This document shows positions 2,370 through 29,877 of a stretch of 64,000 nucleotides of DNA, piece by piece. Position 1 is the stretch's first letter. Each line of letters starts with the position of its first letter. The stretch covers positions 434,001-498,000 of the forward strand of contig NZ_CP029822.1 of the NCBI RefSeq assembly GCF_003991975.1, in the 5' to 3' direction. The notes beneath the pieces were generated by a model. It did no database searches, was not told the DNA's origin, and worked only from the letters and a program-made list of their open reading frames with translations. Both the position numbers and the translations under genes were made by a program. Origin of the DNA: Entomomonas moraniae. GTDB taxonomy: Bacteria > Pseudomonadota > Gammaproteobacteria > Pseudomonadales > Pseudomonadaceae.

Positions 2370-3269
2370 ATGTCACAGGATTTTACTACAAATAACGGCA
2401 TGATTACTGCCGCTTTTGCGCAGCAGTTTCATGATGCGTTTGATATTGAATCACAACAAAAAGAGTCGCGCTTTGTACAAGCAGTGTATAACCGCGGCAA
2501 GATTCAGGGATTTTCTTTTACGGTTAATGATATGGCGTCCATCGAGATGGAGCAGGTCACTGGCCGTTTTGAGGATACTAAGTGGAGTGTGCCTGAATCG
2601 GGTTCTCGTTTAGTCACGATGGCGGATTATGGGTTGCATGTTCCGATTGAGCCACGTGATTTACCTAAGTTGTTGGCTGACCCTCAAGGGGCTTATATGG
2701 CTAACTTGGTGGCGGCGAATAATCGTTTGAAGGATAAGGTGATTTATCGGGGGTTAATGGATGCAATCAAACGTAAAACTTCGCAAGATGGTGCTTACAG
2801 TGATGTCGCTTTGCCTGCTGCTCAGCGTATTTTGGCTGGTGGCGCGGGTATTACTAAGGCGAAAATTATTAAAGCTAAAGCCTTATTTCGCAAGAATGAG
2901 TGCGATGAAAAGATGGGTGAGAAGCTTTATATCGCTTATAACGCGGATATGCTCGAAACAATCTTGAATGATACGACGTTAACCAGTGCAGACTTCTTGA
3001 AGGTGGAGATGTTGCAAGATGGTGCAATAGCAACAAATTGGCTTGGCTTTAATTGGGTACCTTATGAGGCGTTGGATAACAAGGCGGGTGTGCATACTAC
3101 CGTGGCTTGGTGTTCAAGTGGCGCGCATTTTGGTGCGGGTAATGATTATAAGACGGATGTGGGCGTTCGTCGTGATAAGAATAATGCCATTCAAATTTCT
3201 GTTATGTCTTCTTATGGCGCAGGTCGTGCGAATGAGAAGAAAGTGGTTGCTATTGAGTTTGCTGAGTAG
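2370..3269 (+). CDS. Phage major capsid protein (podovirus type)
   Basis: A 299-residue protein beginning MSQDFTTNN. Length, absence of a signal peptide and a conserved-looking body (N-terminal helix, central region with an arginine in EPRDLPKLL, then a beta-rich C-terminal half) fit the HK97-fold capsid proteins of short-tailed phages; I believe it belongs to the group annotated simply as 'phage capsid protein'. Position directly before tail tubular proteins A and B is the T7-like order, which supports the call. The SD is poor: AAGG about 10 bases upstream of the ATG. Base composition is richer in G and T on this strand than the gene to the left. No scaffold protein precedes it. Confidence 0.8.
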   Translation: MSQDFTTNNGMITAAFAQQFHDAFDIESQQKESRFVQAVYNRGKIQGFSFTVNDMASIEMEQVTGRFEDTKWSVPESGSRLVTMADYGLHVPIEPRDLPKLLADPQGAYMANLVAANNRLKDKVIYRGLMDAIKRKTSQDGAYSDVALPAAQRILAGGAGITKAKIIKAKALFRKNECDEKMGEKLYIAYNADMLETILNDTTLTSADFLKVEMLQDGAIATNWLGFNWVPYEALDNKAGVHTTVAWCSSGAHFGAGNDYKTDVGVRRDKNNAIQISVMSSYGAGRANEKKVVAIEFAE

Positions 3270-7101: not shown

Positions 7102-9105
7102 ATGCAAATTCCTAGTGGTGATAGTTTTGGTAATCGTTCTGCCCAGTTAAAGTCAACCAATATACAAGGCCAAAGTAGTGATGGCTTAGCTCTTATGAAA
7201 GGAGCAGTAGACGGCTTTTATAATGAATTGAAAACCAGTGCATTATTGGATGCAAATAATGAGCTGTTTGATTATCAAGTAGGATTGGATACGGCCAGTA
7301 GCCAAGTGGCAGAACTTTTGGCAGCAGGAAAAATTACGGATAAGGAGATAGCCCCAACGTATCAAAAGCTGGAGGATGCTATTAAACCGCCTAATTTTGA
7401 TGGCTTGGATAGGAATAGCCAAAAGCAGTATTTGTTAGATCAAAAAAAATTGTCTTATAACAATAAATTAGGGATTTCTCTGCTAATTAAAAATGCAGGT
7501 GCGGCACGAGCAGGTGCTACAGTTGCTAGGACAGTGGAAAAGGTAGGCGAGTTGGCATATAGCGGTAAAGTTTCAGCCAGCGGGGCAATACAGACTTTAG
7601 AAAATAATGAAGATTTTCAAAAAACTGGTGAGTTTGGGTTTGGGTTTGATTGGAGTCTTCAAAAGGAAGCGAATTATCAGAGACTTCAGTCGTCCTATAT
7701 TTCAGGGGGGATAAAAGATGCAAATGATACCGGTAGTATTGATCAGTTAAAAACGTTGAGAGCGATGTTGCTTGAAGATAATCCTGAGACGAATTACTTA
7801 ACTTCGTTGATTAAAAGTGATTACCTTAAGCAGATTAATGCATCCATTGATGTAAACGTGGGGCGATCCTATGCGAATACTTTAGTTGATGGAATGAATC
7901 AACAGGTTGAGAAAACAGGTAATTTATCTGCTGTGAATGCGTATAGTTTGTTGCGTAAGACACAAGGCGATACGGCAAAGGAGGACACTGAAACAGCCAA
8001 GTATATTGCAAATCAAATGGGTGTTAAGTTCGATCAACAACAGTTTAATAATAATCCGCAATATACTGAGCAATTAAAACAAACTTTTTTTAACCAAGCA
8101 TTAGATCGTTATGGTTCACCCGCAATGGCCGCTATTTCAATACAGGTAGGCCATGAGCAAATGAACAGTTGGCTTAAAGAGTTTGGAAACCCAAGCAAAG
8201 GGCAGTTATCCGAAGCCGACTTTATTAATAAAATGCCTGATGAAAAACTAAAGCAAACGGCGTTAAAAATTAGCCAACAAAAAGAGGATGAACTTGATAT
8301 CGATAGTACTTTAGCGCTTATTGATCGTAATAAAAATTTGAATGATGATCAAAAACGGATTGCTAAAGCTTCAATCAAAAGCTTTATGCTAGAAAAGCAA
8401 CAAGCTCTTAAGGAAAAGTATCAGGAAAATCATCAAGCGATTTGGAATCAGTTATATGTGAAAGGAGAGCCGATTAATAAAGTAGATGCTAGTCAATTGT
8501 GTGCATTAACTGAAGAGGATCGTAAACAATTATTGGAGAAGACACCACCCACACAATTAGACTTTCAGACATATCAAGAGGCTAGGGGGCGGGTTATGGC
8601 TGGAAAACCTATTGATTTAGTAAAAGATTATTTTGGTAAGATTCCAAAAGATCAATTAAAAGAATTGATTGATCTGCAAGAGAATATAAAAAATGATCCA
8701 GCTAGACGTGATGGTGTAATTAAAACCAGTACTCTAATTAATTCTAGGATTAAAGCGGCAGGTTTTATCAATGAAAAAAATCTCAATATTTTAAATGCGT
8801 CTATTGTGGATGATGTTGAGAGTTTTGAAAAGAAGAATGGGCGTGTAGCCTCTCCAAAAGAAATTTTAGATATTACGGATAAGCAGTTTGTTTGGATGCG
8901 CTTAGATGAAGGAGCTTGGTTCGATACCCAAAAACCTTATTATCAAATGACGAAAGATGAACGTAAAGTAGCAAGAGTAGCCTCCGTAAGTAATATCCCT
9001 CAGAAAGAATTGCGTAGAATAAAAGATGCTTTAAAAATTCAAGGGCTATCTGATACAGAAGATAATATTATTGAGTTATACAGTAGGAAGGTGGGAAATG
9101 ACTGA
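7102..9105 (+). CDS. Internal virion-type protein, large
   Basis: 667 residues from ATG 7102, chosen over an upstream in-frame GTG because GGAGGAG lies just before it. Long, mostly helical, Gln/Lys/Asp-rich, no membrane segment or catalytic motif that I recognise. Size and operon slot correspond to gp15-type ejection proteins that pass into the host cell with the DNA. It overlaps the next gene by 8 bases. AT content rises sharply here relative to the capsid and tail genes. Confidence 0.65.
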   Translation: MQIPSGDSFGNRSAQLKSTNIQGQSSDGLALMKGAVDGFYNELKTSALLDANNELFDYQVGLDTASSQVAELLAAGKITDKEIAPTYQKLEDAIKPPNFDGLDRNSQKQYLLDQKKLSYNNKLGISLLIKNAGAARAGATVARTVEKVGELAYSGKVSASGAIQTLENNEDFQKTGEFGFGFDWSLQKEANYQRLQSSYISGGIKDANDTGSIDQLKTLRAMLLEDNPETNYLTSLIKSDYLKQINASIDVNVGRSYANTLVDGMNQQVEKTGNLSAVNAYSLLRKTQGDTAKEDTETAKYIANQMGVKFDQQQFNNNPQYTEQLKQTFFNQALDRYGSPAMAAISIQVGHEQMNSWLKEFGNPSKGQLSEADFINKMPDEKLKQTALKISQQKEDELDIDSTLALIDRNKNLNDDQKRIAKASIKSFMLEKQQALKEKYQENHQAIWNQLYVKGEPINKVDASQLCALTEEDRKQLLEKTPPTQLDFQTYQEARGRVMAGKPIDLVKDYFGKIPKDQLKELIDLQENIKNDPARRDGVIKTSTLINSRIKAAGFINEKNLNILNASIVDDVESFEKKNGRVASPKEILDITDKQFVWMRLDEGAWFDTQKPYYQMTKDERKVARVASVSNIPQKELRRIKDALKIQGLSDTEDNIIELYSRKVGND

Positions 9106-12100
9106 TCAGAACTTATCAGAAGTTGAAGAAAAAGAACTGACAGAAGAAGGTTCTCAAGATAATCAGAGTGAAAATCCTTATCTATTTATAGCTAAAGATG
9201 TTCATAAAGAGCAGGAAAAGCGTAAACGTAAACAAATATTGGCAATTATTCGTAAACAGGATGAAGAGTCACGTCTTAGACAGAATAATACTCCTCTTGT
9301 TTCTGATGAAGAAAGAGCCGCGCGAGAAAAAAAAGCTGAACAAAGACTACAGCTTAGAGCAGAGAATTTTGGTAATGGTAGTTGGGGGAATATCCCTTTG
9401 TCTGCTGATGAAGAATCTTTAATTAAGAAAAAGTCTTCTGAAAGAAGAGATCAGATAGGAGAAAATTTAGATACACTTAGCATGGATTTAACCTCAATAG
9501 GTGCCATGCAAAAAATGATGCTACCTGATGAGTATGTAAAGTTATTGCATAACGCTAAAGTTTTAAATGTTAAGCCTTCTGTGCTGTATGGTATGAGTGC
9601 TGATGAGACAAGATGGATTGATGAAAGTGTTAAGCTAAAGGAGGGGGGGATTAGCTTTTCGAAAACACCTGTGGTTTCTCGTTATTTAAGGGAACCAAGT
9701 AAAGCGGCTATTGCCTCTGATAGTATTGTTAATATGCAATTAATAGAAGATCGTATTAGAAGACAAACTGTTTATGATTCTTTATCTAACAATGAAAAAC
9801 TGCACTCAACATCCTCATTTGATAATTTTGGATATGGTGTTGGTAAAACTAATACCTTAATTAGGGGAGTTTATACTTATGGTTTAAATACAGTAGATGA
9901 GGCAGCTACTCGATTAATTGGTAATTTCTTACCTAGAGAACATAAGGATTTGGCACTTACAGCTTCTGAGATGAGGAAAGAGGCTAGGGGCATGAGTCTG
10001 TTGGAATATGCACAGGATCGCGAGAGTTGGCATCATGATATGCGGGCTAATAATGTAGGGAATATTTATGATAGTAAAGGTTTCAATGCCGCTATTAAGT
10101 ATTTATCAAATAATCCAGGTCTTATTTGGACGTCAATAATGCAAGAGTTACCGACGATGCTTGCGGGAGGTCCTGCTGGAAAAATTGTTACAAAGCCATT
10201 GGAGATAGGACTTAAAAAGACCATTTTGAGTACGTTGTCTCAAAAGGTACTTACTAAATTGGCGCAAAATTCGGCAGTAGGCGCATTATCTTCTTCTACT
10301 AACTACGGTGCTAATTTAGTACAAGCATGGGATGGTAGTCACAGAGATATTAACAAAGCGATAAATGTGGCGAATAAAAAAACTTCGATTGAGGCGGCTT
10401 TTGGGGCAGCATCCGGTATGTTGCCAGATAAAATAGTTGGGGGTAAAGGGCGTTTAGCTAAAGTAGTTAACGGAGTATCAAAAACTCAGGTCGGTATAGG
10501 AATTAATACTCTTGGTAGTTATGTTGCGGCTACTTCTGTTGATGAGAATATTTCTAAAGGGGCTTTATTGGCTAATTTTCTTGTAGGTAATATGACTGCG
10601 GTTGCAGGTTCTGGAATGGATCACTTTCCAACTATAAAAAAATTTAATTCTGAAGTGGCTGAAAATAAAAAAAATATCAAAATCCTTGAGGATAGTATGG
10701 TTAATGATCCTTTAGTCAAAAGGGATCCTGATTTTATGAGATCATTTATTGGAGAGATTGTTCAGGATACAGATAGTGCTATTAAGGATGTTTATGTTTC
10801 AGCAAATAAATTTACTGAGTACTTTGAAAGTAAAGGTATTGACCCATTTCTTAAAGCAAAAGAATTAACAGGTGATATTAATAGTTTACAAGAGGCAATG
10901 GACTTAGGGACAACGCTAAAAATTCCGCTAGATAATTATTTAGTAGATATTGTTGCAGCTGGACATGGTAAGGGATTTAGCCAAGATATTAGTGAAAGCC
11001 CTAGAAGTATGACAGATAATGAATTATCAGCCTTTAATGATAAACAAACATCAGAACTTCCCCAAATTTTTGAAGAACTTAATCAAAAACTTGCAGCATT
11101 ACATGATAAAACCCAACAAAGTGACGTATTTAAAGATGTACGACAACAACTTATTAATATTGGTGAAAAAGAAGCTAATGCCGAGCATAAGGCATTATTG
11201 TATCAATCATTTTTTGAGAAAATGGCAAAACATACGGATGTTGACGCGACCGCATTATATACTAAATATAAATTAGCCATCACAAAAGATAATTTAGAGA
11301 ACCTTGATACAACGCATACGCGATATGCTCAAACGGGGAAAATAGAAGATTTATTTAAGCCTCATTCTGATCAAGCAGAACATTATCGAGCAATGCTCGA
11401 TAATGCAGTTAATTCATTAGTTTCTCGTGATATTACACTCGACTTAGGTAATACACCCGCTGTTTTACAGGCAGTGGGTGCACCAAAGTTAACATTGAAA
11501 ATAACCCGTGATGTTGTTAGAAAAGCTACTAATGGCGCTAAGCATGATGTCTCAATGGATACGATTAAGAATTTACCCGAGTTGCTAAGTGACCCTGTTG
11601 CCGTATTTAAGTCTAACACAGAGGAAAACTCGATAGTTGTATTGATTGATGCAGTTGACGGAAGTAATCGCTCTGTTATTGCGGCGATTCATTTAGATTA
11701 TGCAGAAAAACGTAATATACAAATTAATAAAATAGCCAGTGTGTATGGTAAAGATAGTATCGATGGTTTTGTTAAACGAGAAGTTAAAAATGACCGATTA
11801 CTCTACAGTAGAAACGAAGAGAGCCAAAACTTGGTACGATCAGACGGGCTCCAATTGCCCGTGGATGGTTCACCAAGAAGAGGCTCTGATAAGAGTGTAC
11901 TAAGCCCCTCTGATATTGTCAAATATGAGCAAAGAAAAGATGGAAACACAAACGGTTTCATTGAGATTGATAACGATGGTAATGTAAGAATTAATGTTAG
12001 TAGCACGGCTAATTTATCAACATTCCTACATGAAACAGGGCATTTCTTTTTACATAGTTTAACAGATATTGCTAATATGCCAGAGGCGAAGCATGAGTTA

Positions 12101-13330
12101 AAGACAGATTTAGCTGTTATTCACCAATGGTTAAAAGTTGATGAAACAAAAGGTTTTACGCGTAAACAACATGAACAGTTTGCTCGAGGATTTGAAGCCT
12201 ATTTGATGACAGGAAAAGCACCTAGTCCAGAATTAAAAGGTGCTTTCGAACGTTTTAAAGGATGGCTTATCGAGATTTATCGAGATGTTAGAAATTTAAA
12301 TGTGCCATTGTCTGATGATGTACGACAAGTTTTTGATCGTATGCTAGCTTCTGATAAGGCGATTGAGTCTGCTAAATCTTCGACTAGGCCTTTATTTGAT
12401 AATCCACTTGAAGCTAATATGAGTGCAAAAGAATATGCACAGTATAAAAAGAATTATTCAGCAATAGAGAGTAGGGCCAAAGAAAAATTATTTAAGCGCT
12501 TAGTGCTTGAGCAAAAGCGTATTGCAACGAAAGATTGGCAGGAGAAGCAAAATAATATTCGTGATGAGGTCAGTAAAGAAATTAATAAAGAGCCTGTTTA
12601 TCAAGTATTAGATTATTTAGAAAAGGGTATTTTATTGGATGGTAAAAAGAGTAAAAGTTATAAAATTGATCGTCAACTTTTAAAAGACCAATTTGGGGAG
12701 CAAGTGGTTCGTCAATTAAAATCTTTGACCTCTAACCGCGATGGTGTTAGCCCAGAGTCTTTGGCCGATGTTTTTGGTTTCTCATCGGCGGCTGAGATGG
12801 TATCGGCTTTGCAAAAAGCACCTAATAAACATATGTTGATTAATCTTGAAATACAAGCTCGCATGGCTAAAAAATATGGCGATACATTAAATGATGGTTC
12901 AATTACGGAAAAAGCTATAACTTTATTAGAGAATGAGGATAAAGCAAACATTTTAAAGCAAGAGATAATCGCTCTTTCGCGAGAGGGTTCAGCTTTTGAA
13001 AAGTCGCAGCTAGAAGGTGATAATATAAAATCTATATATGATGTAATGTTAAATGATGAATATTTAAACAATATGGCTGAGCAGGTTTTATTACGAAAGA
13101 CAATAGAAGATATTAATCCCGACTTATATTTAGTTGCTGGCCGTAGTGCTAACCAAGAGGCCTATGATGCGATTAAAAAGAAAAATACAAGGTTGGCAAT
13201 GGAGGCTAAACAGCGAGAGTTGTTAAACCATGTTTTGTATATAAGGGCGCTTGAATTAAAGAATAATTGCAAAAGGAACATAGAGAATGGATATATTAAA
13301 CAGCAAATGAATACAGGCGTTGGCGATTAG
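9098..13330 (+). CDS. Polyvalent internal virion protein with PBECR-like and HExxH domains
   Basis: 1410 residues from ATG 9098 (SD AAGGTGGG; an upstream in-frame start gives only 9 more residues). Order seen: charged N-terminus (1-120), helical region, a glycine/alanine-rich hydrophobic stretch (about 340-510) that could enter a membrane, a domain at about 780-945 resembling the phage Barnase/EndoU/ColicinE5/RelE (PBECR) nucleases (LLSDPVAVF, then INKIASVYGKD, then GLQLP), a zinc-protease-like motif H978-E-T-G-H982, and a Lys/Glu-rich helical C-terminus. Large multidomain ejected proteins with such effector domains are known as polyvalent proteins. Catalytic activity is inferred, not shown. 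DNA at 11820-11887 inside the PBECR-like part also forms the palindromic element described separately. Confidence 0.7.
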   Translation: MTDQNLSEVEEKELTEEGSQDNQSENPYLFIAKDVHKEQEKRKRKQILAIIRKQDEESRLRQNNTPLVSDEERAAREKKAEQRLQLRAENFGNGSWGNIPLSADEESLIKKKSSERRDQIGENLDTLSMDLTSIGAMQKMMLPDEYVKLLHNAKVLNVKPSVLYGMSADETRWIDESVKLKEGGISFSKTPVVSRYLREPSKAAIASDSIVNMQLIEDRIRRQTVYDSLSNNEKLHSTSSFDNFGYGVGKTNTLIRGVYTYGLNTVDEAATRLIGNFLPREHKDLALTASEMRKEARGMSLLEYAQDRESWHHDMRANNVGNIYDSKGFNAAIKYLSNNPGLIWTSIMQELPTMLAGGPAGKIVTKPLEIGLKKTILSTLSQKVLTKLAQNSAVGALSSSTNYGANLVQAWDGSHRDINKAINVANKKTSIEAAFGAASGMLPDKIVGGKGRLAKVVNGVSKTQVGIGINTLGSYVAATSVDENISKGALLANFLVGNMTAVAGSGMDHFPTIKKFNSEVAENKKNIKILEDSMVNDPLVKRDPDFMRSFIGEIVQDTDSAIKDVYVSANKFTEYFESKGIDPFLKAKELTGDINSLQEAMDLGTTLKIPLDNYLVDIVAAGHGKGFSQDISESPRSMTDNELSAFNDKQTSELPQIFEELNQKLAALHDKTQQSDVFKDVRQQLINIGEKEANAEHKALLYQSFFEKMAKHTDVDATALYTKYKLAITKDNLENLDTTHTRYAQTGKIEDLFKPHSDQAEHYRAMLDNAVNSLVSRDITLDLGNTPAVLQAVGAPKLTLKITRDVVRKATNGAKHDVSMDTIKNLPELLSDPVAVFKSNTEENSIVVLIDAVDGSNRSVIAAIHLDYAEKRNIQINKIASVYGKDSIDGFVKREVKNDRLLYSRNEESQNLVRSDGLQLPVDGSPRRGSDKSVLSPSDIVKYEQRKDGNTNGFIEIDNDGNVRINVSSTANLSTFLHETGHFFLHSLTDIANMPEAKHELKTDLAVIHQWLKVDETKGFTRKQHEQFARGFEAYLMTGKAPSPELKGAFERFKGWLIEIYRDVRNLNVPLSDDVRQVFDRMLASDKAIESAKSSTRPLFDNPLEANMSAKEYAQYKKNYSAIESRAKEKLFKRLVLEQKRIATKDWQEKQNNIRDEVSKEINKEPVYQVLDYLEKGILLDGKKSKSYKIDRQLLKDQFGEQVVRQLKSLTSNRDGVSPESLADVFGFSSAAEMVSALQKAPNKHMLINLEIQARMAKKYGDTLNDGSITEKAITLLENEDKANILKQEIIALSREGSAFEKSQLEGDNIKSIYDVMLNDEYLNNMAEQVLLRKTIEDINPDLYLVAGRSANQEAYDAIKKKNTRLAMEAKQRELLNHVLYIRALELKNNCKRNIENGYIKQQMNTGVGD
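11820..11887 (+). repeat. Palindromic element, copy 1 (inside a CDS)
   Basis: A 33-nt core (11833-11865: GGTACGATCAGAC, then GGGCTC, then CAATTGCCCGTGGA) is enclosed by self-complementary arms: AGAGCC (11820-11825) with GGCTCT (11882-11887), and CTTGG (11830-11834) with CCAAG (11873-11877). Inside the core CGGGC pairs with GCCCG. The second copy at 13732-13798 shares 31 of 33 core positions but has different, still complementary arms. Here it encodes V913-RSDGLQLP of the polyvalent protein. Confidence 0.7.
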
Positions 13331-13345
13331 CTTTTAGGTAGAATC

Positions 13346-13678
13346 ATGAATGTAATACAACTAAAAAAACTACAAGCTTTGCGTAATAAGTTATTTGAGG
13401 CGATGGTATTTGATACTAATCCTGAAAACTGGGTGGCTTATGGTAAGCCAGCTAAAGATTTAACCAAGCAAGAAAAAGATGAGGCGGCTTGGTGCCGCCG
13501 TCAGGCTGCGAGCGCCATAGCATTATGGGAGAAAATAGATAAGCTAATTGTTCAACATTCTGAATCTAACAAGGTCGCCAAAAATATTCAAGAAGGACAT
13601 GAGCAACTGGATTTAATCGCCATAGAACAAGAGGCTGATAGTTTATTGACTCAAATCGGTATTGATCGGGCTGATTGA
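13346..13678 (+). CDS. Small phage protein, possible terminase small subunit
   Basis: 110 residues, helical and charged, with a Trp-containing segment in the middle (ENWVAYGKPAKDL, then EKDEAAWCRRQAASA). It follows the polyvalent protein by 15 bases and precedes the large terminase, which is the slot of TerS in T7-like genomes. I see no helix-turn-helix clear enough to prove DNA binding, so TerS is an inference from position and size. Confidence 0.5.
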   Translation: MNVIQLKKLQALRNKLFEAMVFDTNPENWVAYGKPAKDLTKQEKDEAAWCRRQAASAIALWEKIDKLIVQHSESNKVAKNIQEGHEQLDLIAIEQEADSLLTQIGIDRAD

Positions 13679-13949
13679 TAGTTGTTAAGGTCTGTAAGAT
13701 GGATGTGTCGTGGTAGCCAAGAGAAATAAGAAGAACCTAACTGGGTACGATCAGACAGGCTACAATTGCCCGTGGAACATTTCCCCAGTATAGGTTCTTT
13801 ATAAAAGGCTAAGCATTGTGCAGGTATTTGTCAAGCAACGTTATAAAGTGAATGGCTAATTATTGTGATGTTCCAATAACTCAATATTTTCAAACTATGC
13901 TGATCCTTTTGGAAGCTATTGTGTGTTAGCCGTTTTGTAAGAGGTATTT
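13679..13949. other. 271-bp gap between the terS-like gene and terL
   Basis: Apart from the second palindromic element (13732-13798) no gene is seen. The element is read in one frame as a 24-codon stretch bounded by stops at 13727 and just after 13798, with no start codon: EEPNW, VRSDRLQLPV, EHFPSIGSL. Confidence 0.5.
13732..13798 (+). repeat. Palindromic element, copy 2 (intergenic)
   Basis: AGAACCTA (13732-13739) pairs with TAGGTTCT (13791-13798) and ACTGGG (13740-13745) with CCCAGT (13784-13789), giving a 14-bp stem with a single bulged A. The core at 13744-13776 matches copy 1 at 31 of 33 positions. Relative to copy 1 the arms have changed in a compensating way (AGAGCC/GGCTCT became AGAACC/GGTTCT; CTTGG/CCAAG became CTGGG/CCCAG). 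Confidence 0.7.
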
Positions 13950-15560
13950 ATGGGTGTAAAAAAGGTTTCTTTCTTAAGTTTTTTTTTGGTCTGGGCGAGG
14001 CGACAGAACTGGCAAGTGCCGTTGGTGCATGTGAAAGCATGCCATTGGTTGGAGAATGCAGGTGATGTGGCGGTATTGCGATGTTTTCGTGGGTTTGGTA
14101 AAAGCAGTATTTTAGCTATTTATAATGCATGGCGGTTTTATCAAAATCCACAGTATCGGATACTTCATCAATCAGAAACTGATGGCACTGCTTATAAAAC
14201 GAGCCGTGATACACAATATATTCTACGTCATCATCCTCTGACAAAAGACTTAATACCTTTGCAAGGCAGTGTAGGGCAGTGGTGGGTAAAAGAAGCCAGT
14301 GATAGTCGTAATGCTAGTTTGTATGCTAAGGGGATCTTATCTAACGTAACTTCTGCACGCGCTGATGAATGTCAAAATGATGATGTGGAAGTTCCTAATA
14401 ATACGCAAACACCAGAAGCACGAGAAAAAATGCGTGAACGCTTAGACGAGCAAACCCATATTCTTGTCCCTAGGGGACGTAAATTATTTATTGGAACTCC
14501 TCATACTTTTGATAGCTTGTATGATCGATTAGCTAACAAAGGGGCTGACTGCTTAACGATCCGTATGTTTGAACAAGAGTACCGTATTGGAACGGCTACT
14601 AAAAAACGCTATGCCTTACCATTTAAACCTGAGTATGTTTTTTATGGAATAGGGCGGGGAGCTAAAGTATTGCAGATTAATAAAGACTATCAATTACAAG
14701 GCAATACACTGATTTTTAATACCCCTCCTAAAGTACTGATTGATTGCTATGCAGGTATGGCTTGGCCTGAACGATTTACGCTTGATGAGTTAGAAAAGCG
14801 TCGCCGTGAAACAGAAACGGTCAATAAGTGGGACTCTCAATATCAACTTCATGCTAAACCTATTACAGATACACGTTTAGAACCAAGTCGTTTAAGGGTA
14901 TATAAAGATTATCCAGTACTACGAAAAGCCAATGATACGGTTACTTTGTGGTTAAATAATACTCAAATTGTCGGAGCGATTGCTTACTGGGATTGTGCTT
15001 TAGGTAAAGTTAAGGCGGATGCTTCAGCACTGAGTCTGGTATTAACCGATGCGCAAGGGAAACTCTACTGGCAGCTTGCAACAGCTATGTTAGGCGATTT
15101 GGTGGAGTTTGATCAAGCAAGTAATGTAGTTGGTGGACAAGTTAAGCAAGTTAAAGACTGGGTAGTTAAATACCATATCCCTTGCGTAGTCGTTGAAACT
15201 AATGGTGCTGGGGGCTTTGTGCCGCCAATCTTACGTAAAGCACTCAGTGGAACAGGATGTGCTGTGCGTGAGCAGCATGTATCCACCAATAAACAAAAAC
15301 GTATTTTAGATGCATTAGAGCCACCACTATTATCAGGTTTCTTGTGGGCGCATGAGTCTGTTTTTAATTCGCCGGCTATTGAGCAAATGCAAAATTTTAA
15401 TCCTGAATTAACTTATCAAAAAGATGATTATTTGGATAGTATTGCTGGCGCTATTTTACAAACGCCAGTACGTATTGCTATAAGGGTAGAACTGACTAAG
15501 CCAGCTAATAATCAATGGCGATTACCTAATGCTAATATAGAAGTTCAATCGGTGTATTGA
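13950..15560 (+). CDS. Phage terminase large subunit (TerL)
   Basis: 536 residues. An N-terminal ATPase with Walker A R47-G-F-G-K-S-S53, followed by a helicase-like region with ADECQNDD around the Walker B position, then an RNase H-like nuclease with acidic residues at D348 (YWDCALGK) and D492/D493 (DDYLDS). It packages DNA into the capsid through the portal and cuts concatemers. The arrangement matches gp19-type terminases of T7-like phages. SD AGAGG precedes the ATG. Full-length and apparently intact. Confidence 0.9.
   Translation: MGVKKVSFLSFFLVWARRQNWQVPLVHVKACHWLENAGDVAVLRCFRGFGKSSILAIYNAWRFYQNPQYRILHQSETDGTAYKTSRDTQYILRHHPLTKDLIPLQGSVGQWWVKEASDSRNASLYAKGILSNVTSARADECQNDDVEVPNNTQTPEAREKMRERLDEQTHILVPRGRKLFIGTPHTFDSLYDRLANKGADCLTIRMFEQEYRIGTATKKRYALPFKPEYVFYGIGRGAKVLQINKDYQLQGNTLIFNTPPKVLIDCYAGMAWPERFTLDELEKRRRETETVNKWDSQYQLHAKPITDTRLEPSRLRVYKDYPVLRKANDTVTLWLNNTQIVGAIAYWDCALGKVKADASALSLVLTDAQGKLYWQLATAMLGDLVEFDQASNVVGGQVKQVKDWVVKYHIPCVVVETNGAGGFVPPILRKALSGTGCAVREQHVSTNKQKRILDALEPPLLSGFLWAHESVFNSPAIEQMQNFNPELTYQKDDYLDSIAGAILQTPVRIAIRVELTKPANNQWRLPNANIEVQSVY

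Positions 15561-29800: not shown

Positions 29801-29877
<77 letters not shown>

Follow-up and report, generated by a model that had tools for sequence, protein, structure and literature searches.

What is a palindrome with a fixed core and changeable arms doing at this locus, once inside a protein-coding gene and once in a gap between genes? In the window (the whole 64,000-nucleotide stretch of Entomomonas moraniae DNA analysed here), a sequence-only reading had located two copies of such an element at 11820-11887 and 13732-13798, sharing 31 of 33 core bases, with arms that differ between the copies and stay complementary within each. Both copies were found there, their 33-nt core differs at 2 positions, and the compensating differences are as described in the outer arms (AGAGCC/GGCTCT vs. 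AGAACC/GGTTCT) and in the inner arms (CTTGG/CCAAG vs. CTGGG/CCCAG). Over 60 nt the two copies are 80% identical, and each folds far better than its dinucleotide shuffles on either strand (z ~ -4.8 to -5.7, 0/200 shuffles). The 3.34-Mb genome holds these two copies only, as judged by pattern, BLAST and covariance-model searches (covariance-model E-values of 8.7e-6 and 2.5e-4, to be taken as rough for this model, R1). Our answer, to which we give a probability of about 0.82 on the basis of sequence signals, is that both copies are complete small RNA genes encoded by the minus strand, each with its own promoter, hairpin and tail. The features needed at the outset are:

9071-13330, plus strand: polyvalent-protein ORF (1419 residues), in which MuF_C, a PBECR-type RNase-fold domain, is encoded at ~11531-11827, immediately 5' of copy 1
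11820-11887, minus strand: copy 1, hairpin body of a predicted small RNA (RNA 5' end ~11887), antisense inside the polyvalent-protein gene and directly past the MuF_C/PBECR domain
13732-13798, minus strand: copy 2, non-coding, in the gap from the terS-like ORF to terL; hairpin body of the other predicted small RNA
13950-15560, plus strand: terminase large subunit ORF, 3' of copy 2, given for context (PF22530, E 7.4e-7)

The MuF_C match in the polyvalent protein is strong (PF18819, residues 811-909, E 2.2e-26, 92.4 bits vs. a cut-off of 27.6), and copy 1, which encodes approximately residues 907-929, begins at its extreme C-terminal edge and hence lies essentially beyond the domain. The earlier placement of copy 1 in the polyvalent-protein coding region and of copy 2 in the terS-like/terL gap thus stands, whereas its assignment of copy 1 to the PBECR domain itself does not. 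Elsewhere in the window, an Rfam match marks a tRNA gene at 29801-29874, a possible prophage attachment site.

With the element alone as query, BLAST-type searches returned nothing above chance in the phage collection or among relatives, and a single-protein scan of viral contigs was likewise without yield; because element-only DNA searches were unproductive, the protein was used to reach homologues. In the MuF_C region of four distant phages (L016-L019), GLQLP is encoded by near-identical bases (GGGCTYCAATTGCCC), and the arms beside it are complementary within each phage and unrelated from phage to phage. Scanning viral contigs for this 15-mer gave 85 stretches, most of them inside long ORFs past the same domain and with new complementary arms, while others (L032, L033, L034, L036, L040, L050, L059, L063, L066, L072, L099) were set aside as apparent chance matches. 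Since sampling by the 15-mer presupposes the loop, its conservation is stated here for a protein-anchored sample of 109 loci, gathered with a domain alignment (A2) that ends before the element and so does not condition on its DNA. As MAFFT misaligned the arms, gap-free alignments were made within classes of like arm asymmetry. The sequence-only reading had proposed both BLASTN and a covariance model, and where the former failed the latter succeeded: R1 places the element just past the domain in 93/100 loci anchored on the MuF_C/PBECR protein domain alone, and four of its 7 misses (L183, L209, L210, L212) prove on inspection to have a recognisable hairpin.

The homologues share one architecture, namely a variable outer stem, small internal loops, a closing stem GGC/GCC and a 7-nt apical loop, TNCAATT on the plus strand and AAUUGNA on the minus strand. 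Among the 20 sequences of class +2, compensatory changes affect 21 of 22 base pairs, and the covariation score is 0.575 vs. at most 0.146 with a slid partner (0/500 shuffles as high); the second geometry class, class -1 (19 sequences), scores 0.512 vs. at most 0.174 when slid. The outer base pair covaries (GGGC/GCCC, CGGC/GCCG, AGGC/GCCT) and the basal arms are free to vary (AGCC, AACCC, GAGG, and others), with a conserved apex: apical loop and closing stem are kept from Proteobacteria to Firmicutes, with small changes in Akkermansia contigs. When the homologues' arms were examined for loss of complementarity, the outcome that had been named beforehand as speaking against a structured element, they proved to vary with pairing kept.

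Several structural details deserve mention in their own right. One subtype (L210, L216, L219, L201, L111, L107 and the window copies) has an asymmetric internal loop common to Firmicutes and Proteobacteria (TACGA ... TGGTTCA on the plus strand, UGAACCA ... UCGUA on the minus strand), possibly a protein- or RNA-contact motif, of which window copy 2 retains the TACGA side alone. The apical loop region of all elements contains the palindrome CAATTG, which would allow RNA-RNA dimers via the loop, and the plus-strand loop TNCAATT resembles a tRNA T-loop. The Akkermansia contigs L212, L213 and L217 are divergent members, and L212 has a very long hairpin (~ -50 kcal/mol) with the loop TCCAATC and a minus-strand TTGACA/TATCCT upstream.

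Could the conservation simply be that of a protein motif, GLQLP? LQLP does follow the domain in 90/109 protein-anchored loci, but the underlying 15 bases are near-constant despite 1152 codon choices, and of 69 distinct elements, 68 use CAA for Gln and all use TTG for the second Leu. The peptide moreover changes along with the stem (RLQLP, GVQFP, GVLQLH, GLQLS), and at L179 a different reading frame runs through the element (GSNYP), whose folding is still strong. Codon constancy, peptide change with pairing kept, and the existence of non-coding copies refute this explanation, which retains practically no probability; since the peptide varies while pairing stays and some copies encode nothing, GLQLP is best seen as a by-product of a nucleic-acid element.

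The stem search scored Watson-Crick pairs only, and so favoured neither strand. Read on the plus strand, the 146 stem mismatches flanked by Watson-Crick pairs nevertheless include 71 A-C and 14 G-T, where composition would predict 19% and 14% (p 2.5e-7), a bias that persists after dereplication of the elements at 65% identity (p 1.2e-5). Wobble is tolerated in RNA stems and a plus-strand A-C is a minus-strand G-U, hence the minus strand is the folded one; a mutation equilibrium with equal forward and backward rates should be unable to yield such a bias. Ideas that had the sense strand act (a tRNA T-loop-like loop UNCAAUU, an mRNA decoy) were dropped, as the mismatches put the wobble pairs on the minus strand.

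Signals for transcription of that strand flank the hairpin on both sides in the window:

11894-11922, minus strand: putative copy 1 promoter, -35 TTGACA (11922-11917), 17-nt spacer, -10 TACACT (11899-11894)
13806-13834, minus strand: putative copy 2 promoter, -35 TTGACA (13834-13829), 17-nt spacer, weak -10 TAGCCT (13811-13806; 3/6)
11808-11819, minus strand: copy 1 U-rich tail past the hairpin, terminator-like, CUUCGUUUCUAC on the RNA
13720-13731, minus strand: copy 2 U-rich tail past the hairpin, UCUUAUUUCUCU on the RNA

Across the family, a plus-strand TGTCAA recurs at a near-constant distance past the element, i.e., a minus-strand TTGACA, and both window copies have the sigma-70 pattern (TTGACA, 17 nt, TAnnnT) on the minus strand, opposite the host gene, with the predicted transcript start at the hairpin base (11887 for copy 1, 13799 for copy 2). 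An exact TTGACA accompanies 42% of 88 distinct elements vs. 0.2-0.4% of control windows (n = 1514, drawn from these loci), a promoter score of at least 9 is reached by 61% of elements vs. 1.6% of controls, and 97% have 17 nt as their best spacer. Three -10 positions are conserved in the aligned set (T-12 100%, A-11 92%, T-7 97%), and the -35 box is degenerate (TTGCGA) in many enterobacterial members. The -35 box has its coding shadow in the D-[ILV]-V-[KN] motif often encoded past the element. The codons, and even the amino acids (LQLP, DIVK), of a protein can thus be dictated by an antisense RNA gene on the opposite strand, and such peptide motifs, being imposed by the RNA gene, should not be taken as protein function.

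On the other side, the plus strand is A-rich 5' of the left arm, with A in 65-78% of elements at most positions between -34 and -26, which corresponds to a minus-strand U-tract past the hairpin: of the first 8 nt there, 5 or more are U in 86% of 84 elements on the minus strand vs. 1% on the plus strand/other side. A generic terminator scan flagged neither window copy, their tails being U-rich with no clean U-run. Taken together, these signals predict the structured transcript with an intrinsic terminator that is expected of a cis-antisense RNA. The initial suggestion of a folded RNA or DNA under selection is thus upheld by the covariation among homologues, and gains a folded strand (minus), a promoter and a terminator-like tail that had gone unseen.

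The family is found in phages and contigs of Gamma-, Beta- and Alphaproteobacteria, Firmicutes and Akkermansia, mostly with one element per phage record and at times with two in tandem. Tandem pairs lie in frame within one gene (L121-L125, L193, L196, L198, L199, L084, L029), some of them combining two structural subtypes. Only 4 of 398 genomes of the phylum, our own included, have MuF_C above cut-off, and R1 finds the element in 4/4; with stricter filters, R1 matched 1 of 369 genomes of the class, which is our own. Of 5426 complete E. coli genomes, 419 have part of the region that surrounds the member in the E. coli phage PhiR5_2. Copies that stand alone or away from MuF_C comprise window copy 2 and those of L048, L075, L336, L338, L067, L052, L038, L058 and L337, and none of these nine virus records, which may be fragments, has a detected MuF_C. 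The L048 and L075 copies are intergenic with strong promoters, the L058 copy follows an InPase domain and the L337 copy lies in a protein with LPD1. In L336, two matches (2909-2974 and 3060-3109, the second weak at 21 bits) share one intergenic region.

From these computed features (structure, strand, promoter and tail signals, linkage to MuF_C) we infer both transcription and function. Transcription would start at the hairpin base from the sigma-70 promoter (TTGACA, 17 nt, TAnnnT) and end at the U-tract past the hairpin, giving an RNA of ~70-80 nt with predicted ends, folded into one long hairpin of ~57-72 nt with the 7-nt loop AAUUGNA. Any function proposed for it must meet the near-universal linkage to MuF_C, an invariant loop with free arms, and the occasional stand-alone copies; a loop-acting antisense or immunity RNA would meet all three, as would an RNA antitoxin binding the nuclease. 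We tentatively favour an antisense or immunity RNA acting by loop pairing as the most likely action, at somewhat less than even odds: the loop AAUUGNA would pair with the complementary UNCAAUU loop of the sense mRNA hairpin, and PBECR-bearing mRNAs would be silenced. The sense mRNA hairpin does present an exactly complementary 7-nt loop, common to all members, so that a stand-alone copy could also target the copies of other phages in trans. A first Leu codon of CTC or CTT, as seen in 56 of 69 distinct elements, makes the minus-strand loop UUGR and fits the YUNR pattern, which speeds loop pairing in known antisense RNAs; CTG, which these genes prefer among CTN codons (49%), is used there in only 9/69.

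Loop pairing alone does not account for the conservation of the loop across phyla. It is tempting to speculate, although the odds are against it, that the RNA is a universal immunity factor whose invariant loop recognises the mRNA or the nuclease domain of any virion-delivered family member, shielding a lysogen from its own and superinfecting phages, with the stand-alone copies as orphan immunity RNAs. Next in likelihood, if rather doubtful, is an RNA antitoxin: the RNA would bind the PBECR nuclease and inhibit it, with stand-alone copies again serving as orphan immunity. The element is almost always adjacent to MuF_C and stands alone in some records where no MuF_C was detected, which both fit this action, but PBECR toxicity is putative and some copies follow other domains (InPase, LPD1). 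The predicted RNA is a testable candidate for how PBECR-packaging phages spare their own lysogen, and the family represents an unannotated kind of RNA gene, concealed within coding sequence and associated with one toxin-like domain.

The remaining explanations dispense with a functional RNA from the minus strand, or with one at copy 2. That copy 2 is a dead remnant of the end of a duplicated PBECR gene, as the sequence-only reading had considered, may be right about its origin, as it reads EEPNWVRSDRLQLPVEHFPSIGSL between stops, but is unlikely as a description of its present state: a stop codon directly precedes the element, no further PBECR sequence lies nearby, comparable stand-alone copies exist elsewhere, and TTGACA, compensated arms and a U-rich tail are retained though nothing is encoded. 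A promoter followed by a hairpin and a U-tract is also the anatomy of a terminator, and the minus strand might hold just a terminator or an antisense-silencing promoter, the RNA itself having no role; a bare terminator, however, needs none of the loop and closing-stem conservation seen from Proteobacteria to Firmicutes and Akkermansia, and we regard this as quite unlikely. More improbable still is a palindrome acting at the DNA level, either a mobile in-frame element or a recombination hairpin that shuffles polyvalent-protein domains. The in-frame position at a domain boundary, variable arms, tandem copies in some genes (L084, L121-L125, L199) and occasional other positions would suit it, but copies are few, two in the host genome and mostly one or two to a phage record, the site past MuF_C is constant, the mismatches are strand-asymmetric, and promoter and tail would be left unexplained; copy number, constant site, strand asymmetry and absent core-site boxes led us to reject its mobile-palindrome and attC versions. 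A structure acting in the sense mRNA, e.g., as a stability, pausing or decoy element of the polyvalent-protein transcript, is the least probable of these. Plus-strand mismatches of the A-C rather than the G-T type, a promoter and U-tract on the minus strand, and intergenic stand-alone copies all oppose it, despite the good folding of both strands and a location, in most phages, within a coding sequence to which the orientation is constant.

Judged against Rfam 15 and the open-access literature, the element is a previously undescribed small RNA gene family: no Rfam 15 model matched the window elements at gathering thresholds or at E up to 5, or the elements of four homologue loci, no earlier description was found in open-access literature, and neither GLQLP nor "palindrom" occurs in the text of the founding PBECR paper (PMC5512222). 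Rfam does hold other small structured prophage RNAs (int-alpA, C4) to which it is comparable, and the prophage fragment L038, which has a non-coding element, also has an int-alpA match (L038:1461-1528). Like integron attC sites, the element has variable yet complementary arms and one folding strand, but its conserved loop and apical stem over a variable base are the reverse of attC, and no attC core-site boxes were found at the hairpin base, where the arms vary. Like Rickettsia palindromic elements, it is a palindrome read in frame within protein genes with its structure kept, but it differs in having a promoter and terminator on the opposite strand and a fixed position; dispersal over many unrelated genes is not seen, with two copies in our genome and one or two per phage record.

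With type III toxin-antitoxin RNAs (ToxI, and others), the element shares an RNA gene beside an RNase-type protein, and an inhibitory role is plausible. In type III systems the antitoxin RNA consists of tandem repeats and precedes the toxin gene in the same orientation, whereas the element is antisense, lies downstream of the domain, consists of a single hairpin (sometimes two) rather than tandem pseudoknot repeats, and has a PBECR (BECR-fold) domain rather than ToxN as partner. A close parallel is offered by cis-encoded antisense RNAs, known from plasmids and transposons (ColE1 RNAI, R1 CopA, IS10 RNA-OUT) and from phage (lambda OOP). Unlike these, the element sits mid-ORF past one protein domain instead of at a leader, keeps its loop across phyla, has stand-alone copies, and is so far a predicted regulator; like them, it would be a hairpin RNA of ~70-100 nt with a promoter opposite the gene, a terminator at its end, and a 7-nt loop that usually fits YUNR (UUGR).
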